Positions 1-36,604 of a stretch of DNA of 36,644 nucleotides are shown here, piece after piece. The stretch comes from Lactobacillus equicursoris DSM 19284 = JCM 14600 = CIP 110162. Lineage in GTDB: Bacteria; Bacillota; Bacilli; Lactobacillales; Lactobacillaceae. The notes beneath the pieces were generated by a model. The model was given only the letters and a program-made list of their open reading frames with translations. It searched no databases and was not told the DNA's origin. The DNA is taken from NCBI RefSeq assembly GCF_001434815.1, contig NZ_AZDU01000011.1, positions 1 to 36,644 of the forward strand, given 5' to 3'. The stretch's first letter is position 1. Each line of letters begins with the position of its first letter. Made by a program: the position numbers and the translations under genes.

Positions 1-87
1 ACCGGACCACTTTTTCTAAATATTTGCCCCCAACTTGACTCAACCAAGCTAATTTTTCCCGTTTTCTGCCCCCGATTTGACTCAACC
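1..87 (-). repeat. Inverted left arm of the 42-bp repeat array (2 units visible)
   Basis: Two copies of a 20-nt core lie exactly 42 nt apart at 26-45 and 68-87. Read on the minus strand each is GGTTGAGTCAA followed by two or three variable bases and GGGGGC. This is the same core as the forward array, but its middle reads GTCAAAT or GTCAAGT instead of CATACTT. The array continues off the left edge. No gene is seen here. Confidence 0.8.
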
Positions 88-93
88 GGGCTT

Positions 94-788
94 GGTTGAC
101 ATACTTCGGGGGCTTTTTTCTGCAAAAATCAGACTGGTTGACATACTTCGGGGGCAATTTCCGACAAAAATCGGACCGGTTGACATACTTCGGGGGTGAT
201 TTTCGCTAAAAATCACACTGGTTGACATACTTCGGGGGCGATTTCCGCTAAAAATCACACTGGTTGACATACTTCGGGGGCAAATTTCGCTAAAAATCAC
301 ACTGGTTGACATACTTCGGGGGCAAATTTCGCTAAAAATCGGACCGGTTGACATATTTCAGGGGCAAATTTCGCCAATAATCGGACCGGTTGACATACTT
401 TGGGGGCGATTTCCGCTAAAAATCGGACCGGTTGACATACTTCGGGGGCGATTTCCGCAAAAAATCGGACCGGTTGACATACTTTGGGGGCGATTTCCGC
501 AAAAAATCAGACCGGTTGACATACTTCGGGCGCGATTTCCGCAAAAAATCGGACCGGTTGACATACTTCGGAGGCAAATTTCGCAAAAAAGTCGGACCGG
601 TTGACATATTTCGGGGGCAATTCCCGCTAAAAATCGGACCGGTTGACATACTTTGGGGGCGATCACAGCCAAAAATCCACACCGGTTGACATACTTTGGG
701 GGCGATCCCAACCAAAATCAGACTGGTTGACATATTTTGGGGGCGATCCTAGCCAAAAATCCACACTAGTTGACATACTTCGGGGGCC
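94..788 (+). repeat. Direct 42-bp tandem repeat array, 17 units
   Basis: The core GGTTGACATACTTCGGGGGC recurs with its TTGAC at 96, 138, 180, 222, 264, 306, 348, 390, 432, 474, 516, 558, 601, 643, 686, 727 and 770. Spacing is 42 nt, with a few 41 or 43. Each core is followed by a less conserved 22-nt linker, often GATTTCCGCTAAAAATCGGA, which can form a small CGATTT/AAATCG hairpin. Neighbouring units share linker variants: the units at 180, 222 and 264 all end in CACACT, which points to local duplication. The unit length is a multiple of three, so meaningless 14-residue peptide repeats appear in several frames. I regard the array as non-coding. It lies just beyond the yhaM terminator. Confidence 0.93.
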
Positions 789-807: not shown

Positions 808-834
808 CAAAAAACCGACCTCGCGGTCGGTTTT
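808..834 (-). terminator. Rho-independent terminator of yhaM (bidirectional)
   Basis: The stem AAAACCGACC / GGTCGGTTTT with a TCGC loop has A/T tracts on both sides. It lies directly after the yhaM stop codon and ends the PBP-yheA-yhaONM unit before the repeat array. Confidence 0.9.
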
Positions 835-835
835 C

Positions 836-1789
836 TTACTGATATTCTTTTTTCGGCCGGTAATAGCGCTGGCCATCTTGCGAAGACAGCGGCAAGGTGA
901 AGTCGCCCGGCTTGGTCGCGCTCAGCTCCCGCGTAATCGCGTTGACTGCCGCGTCCAAGTCATCGATCCGGTGCAACAGCTCCGCTTCTAGCAGTGCCGG
1001 CAATTTCGGCGAACCGTACTCGTACTTGCCGTGGTGGGACAAGACCATATGCCGGAGCAGGAGCAGATCCTCGCTCTCCTGGTCGATCCCCAGCGCCTGA
1101 GCCGCCAAAACCAGCTGCTCGTCGATCAAGACCAGGTGCCCGATCAGGTTGCCTTCAGCCGTGTACTTGGTCTGGACCGGCCCCGACAACTCCAGCACCT
1201 TGCCCATGTCGTGCAGGATGCAGCCCGCGTACAAAAGCGACCGGTTGACCGCCGGGTAGTTGTCGGCCAGGCCCCGCGCGTCTTTCAGCATGGTCAGGGT
1301 ATGGTAGGCCAGCCCGCCTTCATAGGCGTGATGGTTAGACTTGCCCGCCGGATAGCTGAAAAAGCGCGCATCCCACTTTTTCAGCAGGTACTTGACCAGC
1401 TTATGCCAGTTCTCTTCCTTAATTTCCGCCACAAACTGCCCAATCTCGCGCCGCATCTGCTTCTCTCCTTCCGGAGCGCCGGCGACGAGTTGGCTCACGT
1501 CCACGTTCTCGCTGGCGCTAACCGGATGAATGGAAAAAATCTTGATCTGGTCGCGGCCCTGGTAGTCCTCGAGCAGCCCCGCCACTTCCACGATCGTTCC
1601 CGTCTCAAAACGCTTGGCGTCTTCTGGCTCAGCCTGCCAGTAGTTGGCCCGGACGGCCCCTGACTTGTCGGCCAGCTGCAAGAGCAAATAGTGCTTGCCC
1701 TTTTTGTCCTGCCGCAGCTGGGAATTTTTCACCAATAAGGTCAAGTCAAACTCTTCGCCCTCATTGTAGTCTAGTAAATGTTTAAGCAT
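836..1789 (-). CDS. yhaM: 3'-5' exoribonuclease YhaM (OB fold plus HD domain)
   Basis: The 317-residue protein matches the YhaM family in length and architecture. An N-terminal OB-fold nucleic-acid-binding domain (about residues 10-90) precedes an HD metal-dependent domain. The HD domain shows H154, the motif YHT around residue 163, and ILHDMGK with H193-D194. Family members degrade RNA, and also single-stranded DNA, from the 3' end in the cytoplasm. The ATG overlaps the end of yhaN by 8 nt and has the Shine-Dalgarno GGAGG 6 nt upstream, so the two are translationally coupled. It is the last gene of the unit, followed at once by a strong terminator. The family assignment is secure; the in vivo substrate in this organism is not known from sequence. 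Confidence 0.93.
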   Translation of the reverse strand: MLKHLLDYNEGEEFDLTLLVKNSQLRQDKKGKHYLLLQLADKSGAVRANYWQAEPEDAKRFETGTIVEVAGLLEDYQGRDQIKIFSIHPVSASENVDVSQLVAGAPEGEKQMRREIGQFVAEIKEENWHKLVKYLLKKWDARFFSYPAGKSNHHAYEGGLAYHTLTMLKDARGLADNYPAVNRSLLYAGCILHDMGKVLELSGPVQTKYTAEGNLIGHLVLIDEQLVLAAQALGIDQESEDLLLLRHMVLSHHGKYEYGSPKLPALLEAELLHRIDDLDAAVNAITRELSATKPGDFTLPLSSQDGQRYYRPKKEYQ

Positions 1790-4262
1790 GGCTGGCCTCC
1801 TTCACGTAGCGGTACGGGACTTCGGAAACCTGCTTGGCCAAGTCCTCGCGAGCGGTAAAGACCAGAATCTGCTTGTTCTTGCTCAGCTCGTTTAAGAGGT
1901 TCACGATATTGGTCGTTCTTGGCCCATCAAAGTTGACGAAGGAGTCGTCGATCAAGATTGGCAGATCAATCTTGTCCCTAATCTGCATGACAAAAGCCAG
2001 CTTCAAGGCAAAGTAGAGCTGCTCCTGCGTCCCTCTTGACAGGTACTGGACGGCCAGCTTCTTTTTGTCGCTTCTAACCACCTTCATCGGCGTCCGTTTG
2101 GACACTTTTTCTGGCAAAAGGATGTCCTGATAGCGGCCGCCAGTCAGCAAGGCGAAGTACTTTTTAGCCAAGACCAGCATCTTGGGGAAGCGATCGTTTG
2201 ACGCCAGATCCAGCGTCCGGCCGATGACTTCGCCGGCCAAAAGCGTTGCCAGGTAGTTCTGGCTGTCGCGGGCAAACTTCTCCTCCAGCTGGGCCAGCTT
2301 TTGCTTGCCCTCGTAAACCTGACTGGAGTCGGCGTACTGGCGCTCTTCAGCCTTAATGTTAGCTGACTCTTGCTGCAAAGCCGCCAGGTCGCGGTCGCTA
2401 TCAGCCAGCTGCTGGCTGAGGCCCGCCATCTTGCCCTTCAAGGCTGCTAAGTCAAAGCCGGCTTTTTCAAAAAGTGGCAGCTGGTCGCCCAGGCTGTTGG
2501 CCAGGGCCTCGATCTGCGCCTTAGCCGTGTCCTGCTCGCGCTTAGCAGCAGCCAGTGCTTGGTAAGACGCTAAGTCTGCAACTTTAGCCTGGTTAAAGAT
2601 GGTCAACAGCTGCTTTTCCAGATCAGCAATCTGCTTTTGGTAGCCAGAAAGCGCCTCCTGCTTTTGCCGGTAAACCCGCTGCTGGTCAGCCAAATCCTCC
2701 AGCTGCTTTTCCGCGCCGGCTAGCTGCTTGTTGATTAAGGCTGGTTCATTTTCGGGGGTCTTTTTGGCAAAAAGGGCCACTTCCTGACCCAGGTCAGCCA
2801 GCTCGGCTTCTCTTTCCTGGATCTGCTGGTCCAGACTGACCATACTCTTCCGATTTAAAGAGTAGTCCCGGTATGGGGTGACTAGGCTGTCCACCTTGAC
2901 GCTGCTGCTAAACACGTACTTCTTGGCAAAATCCTGCTTCAAATCGTTAGCAGCTGCCTTTTCTTGCCCCGCCTGCCCCTTTTGGTAAAAGGCATAGGCC
3001 AAAAGGCCGGCACCAACCAGCAGCAAAAGGATCCCCAAAGTCCGATTAGCAAAAAGGATCACCAGCCCAGCTGCCAGCAAGATCCCGCCTGCAAGCGGCA
3101 ACCCTTTGGACAGCGGTGCCTCATCTACTGCTTCGGCCTGGCTTTCGGCGTTCACCTTTTCCCAGTCAGCCTGCAGCTGCTGGAAGTCGGCCACGGGCAT
3201 GTCCTTAACATCGGCTAGGTCAGGCGAAAATTCCAAAATATTCCGCTGCTTGTCTTCCAGCTGCTCGTATTGGAGCTGGCTCGTCTGCAGGGTCCGGGTC
3301 AAGTCCTCTAGCCGTCCTTTAAAATTGGCCAGCTGGGCTTTGGCCCCTGACAGGTCAGTCAGGTCGACTGGCTCGGCCACTTCCTTGGCCGCAGCCGTCT
3401 TCAAGGCCTTGATTTGGGCGTTTAAGTCCACCGCCTTTTGGTAAAGATCGGGGTCAAAGGCCACGTCTTTTTGCGCCTTTTTTAAGCGCAGGTAGTTCTC
3501 ATAATTTTGCGCCTGCTCCAGCAATTTCTCGCACTGCTTGAGCTCGGCTTCTTGCCCCTTGCGAATGGCCATCAGGTCCGCCAGCTGCTTTTGCTTGGCT
3601 AGGCGCGCTGCTTCTAGCTTTTGGTAGTCGTCAAAGGCCGACTCGTTAGCGGCCACCTGCTCTTTTTTCTCGTTCAGCAAGATCAGGTCCTGGTTGACCG
3701 GGGCCTTTTTCCCGCTGGCCTTAAAAAGGTCCTTGGCTTCTTTAGCAAAGTCGCTCCGGATAGACAGGAGCTTGCTCGATTCGGCCGCCCCCAGGTAGTA
3801 GATGTTCTCCAGAATCTCTTCTTCAGACAAGGAGGCGAGCTGGCGCATCAGATCTTCGTTAAAAATAAAGCTGTCGGCGTAGAAATTCCCATCAATATTT
3901 TGAATCTGGTCGTAAAAAAGGATCTCCGGCACTTCCTGGCCCCGGTGCCAAACCTTGACGGCGCCGACCTTGCTCTTGTCGCCTTTAGAATAGGTCCGCT
4001 CGATTTCCCAGTCGCCGTCGCCGGCAAAGACCAGCTTGCCCCCCATGGGGTAGGCCTTTGACAGGGGCTCATAATCTTCAAAAAAGCTAGACGCGGTATT
4101 TTTCAAATTGAAGCCAAAGAGGATCTGCTTGATAAAGGCGACCGTGGTGCTCTTCCCGGCTTCATTTTCGCCAAAAAAGGCTGCCAGGTTGCCATCAGGG
4201 AGGTCAAAAATTTCATCGCTGAATTGACCAAAATTATAAATTTGGATTTGCTTTAACTTCAT
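1782..4262 (-). CDS. yhaN: YhaN, SbcC/Rad50-like ABC ATPase with membrane hairpin
   Basis: This 826-residue SMC/SbcC-like protein has an N-terminal Walker A (GENEAGKST, residues 31-39). Long charged heptad-rich stretches (about 190-380 and 430-700) are typical of coiled-coil arms. The C-terminal half-site has the signature LSRGTQEQ near 741 and a Walker B (LPILIDDSFVNFD) near 767. Two adjacent hydrophobic segments at about 388-404 and 408-425 sit at the apex of the coiled coil where SbcC has its zinc hook; B. subtilis YhaN is also predicted to carry membrane segments there. The ATG overlaps the yhaO stop (ATGA). By analogy to SbcCD/Mre11-Rad50 it probably pairs with YhaO in DNA processing, possibly at the membrane. 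That role is inferred. Confidence 0.9.
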   Translation of the reverse strand: MKLKQIQIYNFGQFSDEIFDLPDGNLAAFFGENEAGKSTTVAFIKQILFGFNLKNTASSFFEDYEPLSKAYPMGGKLVFAGDGDWEIERTYSKGDKSKVGAVKVWHRGQEVPEILFYDQIQNIDGNFYADSFIFNEDLMRQLASLSEEEILENIYYLGAAESSKLLSIRSDFAKEAKDLFKASGKKAPVNQDLILLNEKKEQVAANESAFDDYQKLEAARLAKQKQLADLMAIRKGQEAELKQCEKLLEQAQNYENYLRLKKAQKDVAFDPDLYQKAVDLNAQIKALKTAAAKEVAEPVDLTDLSGAKAQLANFKGRLEDLTRTLQTSQLQYEQLEDKQRNILEFSPDLADVKDMPVADFQQLQADWEKVNAESQAEAVDEAPLSKGLPLAGGILLAAGLVILFANRTLGILLLLVGAGLLAYAFYQKGQAGQEKAAANDLKQDFAKKYVFSSSVKVDSLVTPYRDYSLNRKSMVSLDQQIQEREAELADLGQEVALFAKKTPENEPALINKQLAGAEKQLEDLADQQRVYRQKQEALSGYQKQIADLEKQLLTIFNQAKVADLASYQALAAAKREQDTAKAQIEALANSLGDQLPLFEKAGFDLAALKGKMAGLSQQLADSDRDLAALQQESANIKAEERQYADSSQVYEGKQKLAQLEEKFARDSQNYLATLLAGEVIGRTLDLASNDRFPKMLVLAKKYFALLTGGRYQDILLPEKVSKRTPMKVVRSDKKKLAVQYLSRGTQEQLYFALKLAFVMQIRDKIDLPILIDDSFVNFDGPRTTNIVNLLNELSKNKQILVFTAREDLAKQVSEVPYRYVKEASHA

Positions 4263-8947: not shown

Positions 8948-8984
8948 TTCCCTATTTTTAGGGAAACTGTCGGTTGACCGAGTC

Positions 8985-9077
8985 CTTTTTTAAAAAATAT
9001 CCCAAAACTATGCAAGACGACAAAAAAATTTCCCTTTTCTATGCAACACTCCAGATTTTCCCCCTAAAATTATGCAT
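8985..9077 (-). repeat. Left (inverted) arm of the 31-bp repeat cluster, 3 units
   Basis: ATGCA(A/T) occurs at 9010, 9041 and 9072, exactly 31 nt apart. Read on the minus strand, two units begin TTGCATAG and one begins ATGCATAAT, followed by a G run (GGGA or GGGGGA) and a T- or A-rich linker. This arm is inverted relative to the 9205-9345 arm. Confidence 0.75.
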
Positions 9078-9204
9078 GACTTCTCAATTTCATCCAATTT
9101 TTCCTGCACATTTGCTTTTCAGCATTAAATAAACTATACGCTTGCTGATATTGCATAGAGTTCTGGCTTTGATTAAAAAATTTCGGGACCTATAAAGTCA
9201 TCTA
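9078..9204. other. Spacer between the two repeat arms
   Basis: This AT-rich 127 bp separates the inverted and direct arms of the 31-bp repeat. It contains a lone TTGCATAG at 9151 and a degenerate TTTCGGGACC at 9181, perhaps decayed repeat units out of phase with the arms. I see no ORF or promoter here that I can support. Confidence 0.4.
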
Positions 9205-9345
9205 TTGCATACTTTTGGGACATTTTTACCAACCGTTGCAGACTTTTGGGACTTTTTTACCAACCGTTGCAGACTTTTGGGACTTTTTTAGCGACCGTTG
9301 CAGACTTTTGGGACATTTTAGCTGGTCGTTGCATATTTTAGGGAA
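9205..9345 (+). repeat. Right (direct) arm of the 31-bp repeat cluster, 4.5 units
   Basis: Units start at 9205, 9236, 9267, 9298 and 9329, exactly 31 nt apart. Each reads TTGCA(T/G)ACTTTTGGGAC, then a T-rich stretch and (A)CC(A/G)ACCG. The last unit is truncated and diverged (TTGCATATTTTAGGGAAAA). Confidence 0.88.
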
Positions 9346-9375
9346 AACCACCTCCACCAAAATCCAAGACAAAAG

Positions 9376-9410
9376 AAAAAAGATTTCTAGCAAAGCTAGA
9401 AATCTTTTTT
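9376..9410. terminator. Bidirectional rho-independent terminator between convergent genes
   Basis: A perfect 16-bp stem (AAAAAAGATTTCTAGC with its complement) and an AAA loop has T tracts readable on both strands. It ends fba on the minus strand and can end read-through from the pseudouridine synthase on the plus strand. Confidence 0.95.
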
Positions 9411-9425
9411 GCAGCTAACAGAAGA

Positions 9426-32282: not shown

Positions 32283-32499
32283 ACAAAAACGTCCTATGCA
32301 AACACATAGGACGAGTTATTTCGCGGTACCACCTAAGTTCCACGCCAAACGGCGTGACACTCAAATGTTTCTTAAAGCGAAACAACACTTTGGCATTTTC
32401 CGGGTGAGTTCAAAAATTTCCTTTCAAGCCTCGCAGCAACCGGCTCTTCTCTGAGGAAAGAAAAAATTCTACTACTCCCTGCCCTTTATTATTTTCTCT
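32283..32499 (-). promoter_or_regulatory. T-box riboswitch (Leu) of leuS
   Basis: The T-box core AGGTGGTACCGCG (32322-32334) precedes the terminator stem CGTCCTATG / CATAGGACG (32290-32313) with a T run. Stem I (GGGCAGGGAGTAGTAGAA ... ACTCACCC) carries the specifier codon CTC (Leu) at 32406-32408. The TGGT bulge can pair with the ACCA end of uncharged tRNA-Leu. A -10 TATAAT at 32506-32511 (minus strand) sets the start near 32499; the -35 is weak. Uncharged tRNA-Leu reading CTC should favour read-through into leuS. Confidence 0.93.
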
Positions 32500-34786: not shown

Positions 34787-35983
34787 TTATTTGTGCTTTG
34801 CCACAAAATCCTGCAGCTGCTCTATCCGGTCGGTCTTTTCCCAAGGCAGGTCCACGTCGGTCCGGCCAAAGTGGCCGTAAGCGGCGGTTTGCCGATAGAT
34901 TGGCCGGCGCAGGTCCAGCATCTTGATGATGCCGGCTGGGCGCAGGTCAAAGGTGGCCCGAACTGCTTCAGTTAACAGCTGGTCGCTGACCTTGCCAGTC
35001 CCGGCCGTGTCAATCATGACTGAGACCGGGTGAGCCACGCCGATGGCGTAAGCCAGCTGGACTTCACACCGGCTGGCTAAGCCAGAAGCGACGATATTTT
35101 TAGCTACATAGCGGGCAGCATAAGAAGCACTCCGGTCAACCTTGGTGGCATCCTTGCCGCTGAAGGCCCCGCCGCCGTGGCGGGCATAGCCGCCATAGGT
35201 GTCAACGATAATCTTGCGGCCAGTCAAACCAGCATCGCCCTTAGGACCGCCAATGACGAAGCGGCCCGATGGATTGATCAAGAATTTGGTATCATCGTCC
35301 AAGTACTTGGCTGGAATCACTTCTTTAATTACATCGTGAACCATCGCCACGCGAATTTCTTCGTTAGTAACTTCTTCGCTGGTTTGGGTGGAAATGACCA
35401 CGGTGTCGACCCGCTTAGGCTTCCCATCATCGCCGTATTCAACGGTGACTTGGGCTTTAGCGTCTGGCCGCAGCCACGGGAAGGTGCCGTCTTTACGCAG
35501 GCTGGCCACCTTGTGCATGAGCTTGTGAGCCAAAGAAATCGGCAAAGGCATCAGTTCTGGCGTTTCATCGATAGCGAAGCCAAACATCAATCCCTGGTCG
35601 CCGGCCCCGATTTGGTCTAGCTCATCGCTGTCATCTTGGTTCCGGACTTCCAAAGCTTCGTTAACCCCGCCGGCGATGTCAGGCGACTGCTTATCAAGTG
35701 CTACTAAAACGGCGCAGTTGTCGGCGTCAAAGCCCAAGGCTGGATCGTCATAGCCGATCTCCCGGATGGTTTGCCGGACGACTTTTTGGTAGTCGACTTG
35801 AGCCGTGGTTGAGATTTCGCCAAAAAGCAAAACCAACCCCGTCGTAACTGAAGTTTCACAAGCCACGTGGGCGTGCGGATCTTGAGCTAAAACGGCGTCC
35901 AAGATGGCATCTGAGATTTGGTCAGCGACCTTGTCTGGGTGGCCTTCAGATACTGATTCTGATGTAAATAAATGTTTTTCCAT
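34787..35983 (-). CDS. metK: S-adenosylmethionine synthetase
   Basis: The 398-residue enzyme has [10 protein letters not shown] (residues 9-18), the GAGDQG loop, the phosphate-binding glycine-rich segment [13 protein letters not shown], and normal family length. It makes S-adenosylmethionine from ATP and methionine in the cytoplasm. The ATG lies only a few bases after a GGGGG Shine-Dalgarno that is part of the SMK riboswitch, so translation should fall when SAM is abundant. The stop is followed within about 55 nt by the MFS gene start without an obvious terminator, so read-through is possible. Confidence 0.98.
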
Positions 35984-35989
35984 GTGTGT

Positions 35990-36064
35990 CCCCCTATAGA
36001 CTAGCTACACGGTTACAAGGCATCTTCACTTGGTAGTGAATCCTATCAGGACAAGACTTGTAAC
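35990..36064 (-). promoter_or_regulatory. SMK box (SAM-III) translational riboswitch of metK
   Basis: On the minus strand GTTACAAG (36057-36064) pairs with CTTGTAAC (from 36012). Conserved internal elements GATAGGA and AGATGCCTTGTAACC lie between, and the GGGGG Shine-Dalgarno (35990-35994) follows. This is the Lactobacillales SMK layout, where SAM binding pairs the Shine-Dalgarno with an internal anti-SD and blocks ribosomes. Confidence 0.9.
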
Positions 36065-36100
36065 AATAAAATTAAAATAATTTTCCATGTTCAGATTAAG

Positions 36101-36138: not shown

Positions 36139-36211
36139 TGGAGGATATAGGGCTCGAACCTATGACCTCCTGCTTGTAAGGCAGATGCTCTCCCAGCTGA
36201 GCTAATCCTCC
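36139..36211 (-). tRNA. tRNA-Val (TAC)
   Basis: 73 nt. Acceptor GGAGGAT/ATCCTCC with discriminator A; anticodon loop CTTACAA with anticodon TAC. No encoded CCA. Confidence 0.96.
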
Positions 36212-36213
36212 AA

Positions 36214-36285
36214 TGACCCGTACGAGATTTGAACTCATGTTACCGCCGTGAAAGGGCGGTGTCTTAACCACTTGACCAACGGGCC
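36214..36285 (-). tRNA. tRNA-Glu (TTC)
   Basis: 72 nt. Acceptor GGCCCGT pairs with ACGGGTC; anticodon loop CTTTCAC with anticodon TTC; discriminator A. Two nt separate it from tRNA-Val, with which it is co-transcribed. Confidence 0.95.
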
Positions 36286-36303
36286 GTCTTCAGCACTCTT
36301 TCT

Positions 36304-36331
36304 AGTATACAGACTTTTTCTAGCTTTGCAA
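36304..36331 (-). promoter_or_regulatory. Promoter of tRNA-Glu-Val
   Basis: On the minus strand, TTGCAA (36326-36331) is separated by 16 nt from TATACT (36304-36309), close upstream of tRNA-Glu. Confidence 0.65.
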
Positions 36332-36403
36332 GTATTTCATGAAAGAATACGCTATTTTGAGTCTCTAATCTAAATTGTAAAATGAAAAAATAAAATGCAA
36401 AAG

Positions 36404-36428
36404 AAAAACCACGACCGAAGTCGTGGTT
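36404..36428 (-). terminator. Terminator with UUCG tetraloop after tRNA-Met
   Basis: On the minus strand AACCACGAC-TTCG-GTCGTGGTT is followed by TTTCTTTT. It ends the upstream Ser-Met tRNA transcript. Confidence 0.88.
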
Positions 36429-36433
36429 GCTTA

Positions 36434-36507
36434 TAGCGGCGGGGGGGATCGAACCCTCGACCTCCCGGGTATGAACCGGACGCTCTAGCCAGCTGAGCTA
36501 CACCGCC
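36434..36507 (-). tRNA. tRNA-Met (CAT), elongator type
   Basis: 74 nt. Anticodon stem TCCGG/CCGGG with loop TTCATAC, anticodon CAT. Acceptor GGCGGTG/CGCCGCT has G-U pairs at the end and at 6-67, with discriminator A. It lacks the three G-C pairs of initiator tRNA in the anticodon stem. The T stem GAGGG/CCCCC has one A-C mismatch. A tRNA-Ile2 with a lysidine-modified CAT cannot be fully excluded. Confidence 0.88.
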
Positions 36508-36513
36508 ATAATA

Positions 36514-36604
36514 CGGAGTGTGAGGGATTTGAACCCTCGATACAGGTTGTTACCCGTATACATGATTTCCAATCATGCTCCTTCAGCCGCTCGGACAACA
36601 CTCC
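36514..36604 (-). tRNA. tRNA-Ser (GGA)
   Basis: 91-nt class II tRNA. Acceptor GGAGTGT/ACACTCC with discriminator G, anticodon loop TTGGAAA with anticodon GGA, and a long variable arm (TACGGGTAACAACCTGTA). Confidence 0.96.

Follow-up and report, generated by a model that had tools for sequence, protein, structure and literature searches.

The Array at the Start of the Window

The DNA analysed here, called the window, is a stretch of 36,644 bp from Lactobacillus equicursoris DSM 19284, and its base 1 is base 1 of contig C13 in a draft genome of 2.05 Mb and 182 contigs (L, C and G denote genome stretches or loci, contigs of the source genome and genomes of the genus, respectively). It opens with a tandem repeat array in two opposed arms (1-787). 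The left arm consists of two GTC-type units on the minus strand (26..87; cores at 26-45 and 68-87), and because window base 1 coincides with the start of C13, the assembly truncates this arm and its two units are a minimum. The 6-bp junction GGGCTT (88..93), which has no strand, separates the opposed cores and is followed by a right arm of 17 CAT-type units on the plus strand (94..787). This agrees with a preliminary description of the same DNA, in which two opposed left units carry GTCAAGT or GTCAAAT in place of CATACTT and the switch point is an inverted repeat (TCAACC at 82-87, GGTTGA at 94-99). The 17 direct units from base 94 were likewise found, but the constant period of exactly 42 bp claimed for them holds in 12 of the 16 spacings; the four deviant ones (43, 43, 41 and 43 bp) all lie past base 556.

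Directly outside the array there is an intrinsic-terminator-like hairpin on the minus strand (811..834; scan stem 828-813, outer limits by reading) of an inward-pointing gene (836..1789, minus strand). This gene is aimed at the array and its product has an HD domain and an OB fold; we take it to be YhaM-like. The missing left side of the array may be contig C24 (L108), which opens with GTC-type units, has one linker in common with the left arm of the window, and carries as its first gene a PPIC-type rotamase directed at the array.

A second, 31-bp array (family C, core TTGCAKACTTTTGGGAC) lies on the plus strand at 9204..9319, between a pseudouridine synthase gene (plus strand) and an aldolase gene (minus strand) that converge on it. 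Scattered opposed pieces of TATGCA type were seen by eye to its left (8948-9425). Positions 1-800 matched no Rfam covariance model at the gathering threshold; farther along the window, minus-strand matches at 32304-32494, 35981-36068 and 36139-36604 comprise a T-box leader, a SAM-III riboswitch and four tRNA.

A Genome-Wide Repeat Family

The array in the window belongs to a genome-wide repeat family (family A). A copy-number search of the core had been suggested in the preliminary description, and with at most two mismatches the source genome gave 201 matches to the CAT-type core GGTTGACATACTTCGGGGGC and 0 to its reversed control, an excess far above chance; the GTC-type core GGTTGAGTCAARTYGGGGGC has 180 at the same threshold. 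Parsing of the extracted stretches, with at least 8 of the 12 block letters required to call a unit, yielded 31 array segments with 443 units. With L123:35-641 counted once, 19 segments are two-armed and 11 one-armed; 10 of the latter end on the inner side at a contig end, so some pairs of them could be the two sides of a single array. The true exception is L130 (contig C132, 43-555 plus degenerate units to ~620), which has a single orientation with both ends visible.

Conservation of the opposed arms was evident at the junction. In all 18 two-armed arrays whose arms are connected by N-free sequence, the arms stand head-to-head with cores exactly 6 bp apart, as they do in all six arrays found in three relatives; the nineteenth two-armed segment, L123:35-641, has a gap of 21 bp that includes N and was left out of this count. 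Same-arm spacings (n = 394) are 42 bp in 380 cases, 43 bp in nine and 41 bp in five. Skipped units were absent even though the linking rule permitted 84 bp, which limits the bias that could arise from picking units by their blocks.

Repeats of family A or of a second family, B, described below, lie within ~100 bp of an end on contigs C2, C13, C24, C90, C97, C104, C106, C115, C121, C122, C126, C132, C136, C139, C147, C150 and C151. With repeats inside or beside the ends of so many contigs, the arrays have probably broken the draft assembly.

Conserved Blocks and Two Unit Types

Each unit consists of GGTTGA, eight middle bases, GGGGGC and a 22-bp linker. Identity was computed for 380 of the 443 units (219 CAT, 161 GTC), taken from arms of at least three units with the outermost units dropped. 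Within and between arrays, respectively, GGTTGA has an identity of 0.973 and 0.964 in CAT units and 0.990 and 0.990 in GTC units, and GGGGGC of 0.958 and 0.952 (CAT) and 0.977 and 0.973 (GTC), whereas the linker falls from 0.759 to 0.549 (CAT) and from 0.763 to 0.590 (GTC). The two 6-bp blocks thus appear constrained, being about equally alike within and between arrays while the linkers decay. Compared across the two unit types, the blocks still have identities of 0.978 and 0.957; the middle bases are type-specific, with 0.31 between types and 0.75-0.77 between arrays of one type. Unlike the rest of the linker, its A-rich stretch at positions 31-35 holds 0.75-0.80. Linkers had previously been called near-repeats, in accordance with the 0.76 identity within arms.

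The usual array combines one GTC arm with one CAT arm, and a GTC-like unit faces a CAT-like unit in the innermost pair of 17 of the 18 arrays. Both arms of L115 and L123:13748 are almost all CAT, and the innermost pair is still GTC-like against CAT-like, the middle of the GTC-like unit reading CTC in L115 and GTT in L123. The exception is L112, in which two CAT-like units face each other at the junction, the left one in degenerate form. The longest perfect in-register match between arms is 6 to 14 bp (18 arrays, up to 420 bp from the junction); long palindromes are therefore prevented by the two unit types, whether or not this is the reason for their existence. Blocks of units have been duplicated, as L113 and L115 show with a higher-order repeat of 126 bp and L114 with nine near-identical units.

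Further Repeat Families

Family B, with the core AGTTGAGTAAGWTYRTGAGCA, lies beyond the GTC arm of eight source segments (partly in L122) and of G094, and also occurs free-standing; its loci are L107, L108, L110, L111, L113, L114, L119, L130, L143, L176-L181, L183 and L184. The outer end GGGATGCAC, common to several GTC arms, is the adjoining family B unit and not the end of the element. Spacings in family B are 32 bp (63 times), 33 bp (12 times, at one locus), 75 bp (12 times), 42 bp (seven times) and four others. Its head-to-head junction measures 17 bp in 8 of the 14 clusters examined, which include one from G094, and is 11 bp, or about one helical turn, longer than that of family A. Other junctions measure 49 bp (17 + 32; three times) and 92 bp (17 + 75; twice), in which a unit may have been missed by the strict motif, and one of 37 bp contains N. 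With at most three mismatches the core has 89 matches in the source genome and 32 in G094, against two control matches in each; other genomes have 0-6 matches, a low number that does not always equal that of the controls.

The placement of family B is less clearly convergent than that of family A: among free-standing arrays with genes on two sides (L130, L176-L179), one of five, L177, lies between convergent genes, and one-sided arrays have an inward gene in four of four cases. At L177 (1985-4817), the long B array (3195-3829) separates a converging Beta-lactamase Pfam gene and a glycosyl hydrolase family 3 gene. Family C has eight matches in the source genome in total, comprising the window array and pairs on C104 and C160. 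The cores of the families look alike by eye, for example AGTTGAGTCAACTTTGGGCC in B and GGTTGAGTCAACTTGGGGGC in A.

Genomic Location

Genes were called with a codon-score script rather than a full gene finder. Eight of the 11 family A segments with a gene on both sides sit between convergent genes (one of them, L123:13748, with a weak gene call of 92 aa on its right) and three lie elsewhere, whereas, of the 149 gaps without an array in this DNA, 8 are convergent (Fisher p ~2e-7); these eight include the family C gap of the window and a mis-call beside an L125 array, and the background is local, as the sample was picked around arrays. Under a slightly different filter, seven array-bearing gaps were convergent, three co-directional and none divergent. 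By hand tally, 35 of 41 flanking genes are aimed at the array (binomial p ~5e-6).

A terminator-like hairpin with a T-run was present for 34 of the 35 inward flanks, a count without a matched control, and suggests that the arrays are mostly untranscribed; in four flanks the best hit lies inside the first 60 nt of the array. Considered as a possible replication-polar signal, arm polarity had no link with gene direction (p 0.45) and a nominal one with local GC skew (p 0.04, from 27 segments of which several share a contig). L126 carries, at 1143-2102 on the minus strand, a gene for a 319-aa protein that begins like a signal peptide, contains a long region of lysine/alanine repeats and matches no Pfam family.

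Related Species

With at most three mismatches, the CAT core was found in 4 of 75 genomes of the genus (source 243, G084 42, G068 two and G094 one match); with at most two mismatches it was found in 1 of 60, the source genome. By identity of the gene beside the window array the nearest genomes are G094, G068 and G087 (79 percent), followed by G084 (73 percent), and G087 had no CAT-core match at up to three mismatches. The array of G068 has 2 + 2 units, and in G094 a single clear pair at the junction is bordered by degenerate units. Occurrence in a single strain with random copy number had been named beforehand as an argument against function; the same layout was found in four species. Three of the matches in a search of database records are compatible with chance (~7 expected by our own estimate).

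Several loci are shared between species. Source L118 and L140 of G084 carry the same hexamer, AGTCTC, at the junction and have both flanks in common (82 and 76 percent), and source L111 and L143 of G094 have one common flank (85 percent) and the junction AAGCCT; at these two loci both arms and the hexamer are kept and arm lengths differ. Source L129 and L135 of G068 have a common flank (93-95 percent in the nearest pieces), the junction of L129 lying beyond the contig.

For the window locus, 29 related loci were checked, and in 20 of them the window gene is followed on its 3' side by a relative of the C24 rotamase gene, encoded on the other strand; the aligned gene pair is 89-157 bp apart in 15 of these 20, and 535 bp apart in G094, the nearest relative with this gene pair. 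The CAT core was absent from all of these gaps, the sole G094 match being on another contig. As the site is array-free in relatives, the array was either gained in the source genome or lost in the relatives. Just 3' of the window-gene relatives at L145-L147, a short leader-like frame rich in F/Y precedes a hairpin region and looks attenuator-like by eye.

Relation to Known Repeats

Repeats with some of these properties are known from other bacteria. The EFAR repeats of Enterococcus faecalis, from the same low-GC Gram-positive host group, are interspersed, palindromic and modular and lie near hairpins, and the MIRU/VNTR minisatellites of mycobacteria are, like the present arrays, intergenic tandem repeats at dozens of loci. 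We know of no constant-period arms in the former and of no head-to-head arms or fixed junction in the latter. The preliminary description knew of no element with this layout, and we likewise found no published description in the open-access literature searched; an earlier paper, reference 3 of PMC8161180, may list similar repeats. The accessible part of a study of L. delbrueckii discusses a large inverted repeat at the terminus and does not describe these arrays (PMC5345009).

The closest parallel is provided by Subirana and Messeguer, who reported, for Bacillus and related genera, constant-length tandem repeats of 52 or 20-21 nt and, in the text available, also proposed a polymerising DNA-binding protein for them (PMC8161180). 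As far as that text extends, those repeats resemble ours in forming many non-coding arrays per genome, with fixed unit length, conserved short motifs, free sequence in between and restriction to particular species. Here, too, units of one length recur at many loci while their sequence varies (380 of 394 spacings at 42 bp; linker identity 0.55-0.59 between arrays). Our units differ in length (42, 32 and 31 bp), and the accessible sections of PMC8161180 do not describe arms in opposition, a second unit type, a fixed junction or placement between convergent genes. REP/BIME elements, according to the portions available, are extragenic, of high copy number, often located between convergent or unidirectional genes and arranged in inverted pairs, with a suggested role in gyrase binding or chromosome organisation (PMC2817692, PMC3733652). 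The present arrays are similarly extragenic, abundant, inverted and mostly between convergent genes. REPs as characterised there form palindromes headed by GT(A/G)G and switch orientation from one to the next; our units, in contrast, do not fold (single arm, both strands) and run head-to-tail within an arm, with one inversion per array.

A Candidate DNA-Binding Array and Its Rivals

Selection on the unit and its layout, as suggested in the preliminary description, is supported by the near-constant period, the invariant 6-bp junction, the conserved blocks and the occurrence in four species. Judging from sequence patterns, we tentatively favour, at somewhat less than even chances, a double-stranded DNA platform for a putative sequence-specific protein at 3'-3' gene boundaries, a reading to which the constrained blocks, the fixed junction and the whole-turn steps point and which is compatible with the DNA-binding array proposed earlier. 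The two 6-bp blocks, 8 bp apart, would be the contacts of the putative protein, and a step of 42 bp, equal to four turns at 10.5 bp, would place its copies on one face of the DNA, where they could touch and spread. The fixed head-to-head junction may serve as the start point, and the two unit types may prevent long perfect palindromes between the arms. Once bound, the array could act as a topological or transcription boundary between converging genes, much as gyrase-targeted REP elements are thought to do in E. coli according to the part of that work available (PMC3733652). The whole-turn periods are weak evidence, comprising two or three independent periods. Counted against the binding array are a mean curvature that is not raised, arm polarity unlinked to gene direction, the 3 of 11 arrays outside convergent gaps, L130 and the array-free site in G094.

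A more specific version, which we regard as rather unlikely, is an undescribed bacterial boundary system in which a protein nucleates at the junction, polymerises outward along two rows and marks convergent boundaries, with parallel families of 42, 32 and 31 bp. If it were true, the published unexplained repeats of 20-21 and 52 nt (two and five turns) would share its principle. Constant-length tandem repeats without a mechanism are known in several bacteria, and the element described here offers a defined start point, polarity, contact-like blocks and a convergent-gene rule. Owing to this defined layout and to the relatives whose small arrays comprise one or two pairs, binding, deletion and strain-comparison tests become direct.

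Close behind the binding array, and fitting the same facts, we place a non-autonomous selfish repeat, itself somewhat doubtful, in which a recombinase or transposase would read the blocks and the junction and seed a head-to-head pair beside terminators, the units then multiplying outward. Conserved blocks with free linkers would also arise if an amplifying enzyme recognised the blocks, and the smallest forms are indeed one or two head-to-head pairs (G094, G068), the arrays adjoin terminator-like hairpins, and the array-free window locus of G094 indicates gain or loss. Moreover, three G084 arrays have common flanks and resemble one source array, with transposase genes near one of those checked. 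However, arrays at matching positions in different species at three loci are old residents, and no encoded enzyme was seen in a non-systematic look. A common outer end, as in an insertion sequence or MITE, was not visible by eye except for the adjoining family B units, and neither blastn against plasmids and phages nor exact patterns in viral contigs gave a match, the coverage of these collections possibly lacking records near the source genome. L130, the array-free G094 site and the GC skew cut both ways between the selfish repeat and the binding array.

Neutral minisatellites, piled up by slippage and unequal exchange where 3'-3' gaps tolerate expansion, would account for the block duplication (L113, L115 and L114) and for arm lengths that differ between species. 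We consider this improbable, since identical blocks despite diverged linkers and an invariant junction in 24 arrays would be unexpected without constraint. An RNA element, in which the arms pair in register upon read-through to form a direction-independent barrier or 3'-end stabiliser, is less probable still: RNA across the window junction has a more favourable fold than every one of 200 shuffled versions (z -4.60), but such a fold is expected of any inverted layout, the two arms often differ in length (3 against 14 or 23 against 12 units, for example), their longest perfect in-register run is 14 bp, terminator-like hairpins precede the arrays, and RNA from stretches of one arm folds no better than shuffles on either strand (z +0.58 and +0.76).

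The last result also disfavours, within an arm, the modular RNA suggested earlier. The proposed CGATTT/AAATCG linker hairpin found no support either, with 2.87 of 5 pairs in CAT units against 2.72 in shuffled and a higher 3.28 in slid controls, and 1.19 against 1.15 shuffled in GTC units. The -35-like TTGACA noted earlier is present in the right-arm cores; a promoter scan gave one site against 1.0 expected, which speaks against a promoter array. A CRISPR array was rejected because the linkers are near-repeats and not unique spacers, and phage or plasmid cargo on the searches given above. Reading frames are open across units because 42 is a multiple of 3, yet single-base shifts and the intergenic position of the arrays make a peptide-coding repeat less likely. 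Intrinsic curvature, from a wedge model, was rejected as a general feature, at 31 degrees per 42 bp for arrays against 28 for shuffled and 30 (maximum 44) for background sequence; a few GTC arms (L109, L114, L118 and L122) are more curved, at 42-47 degrees.
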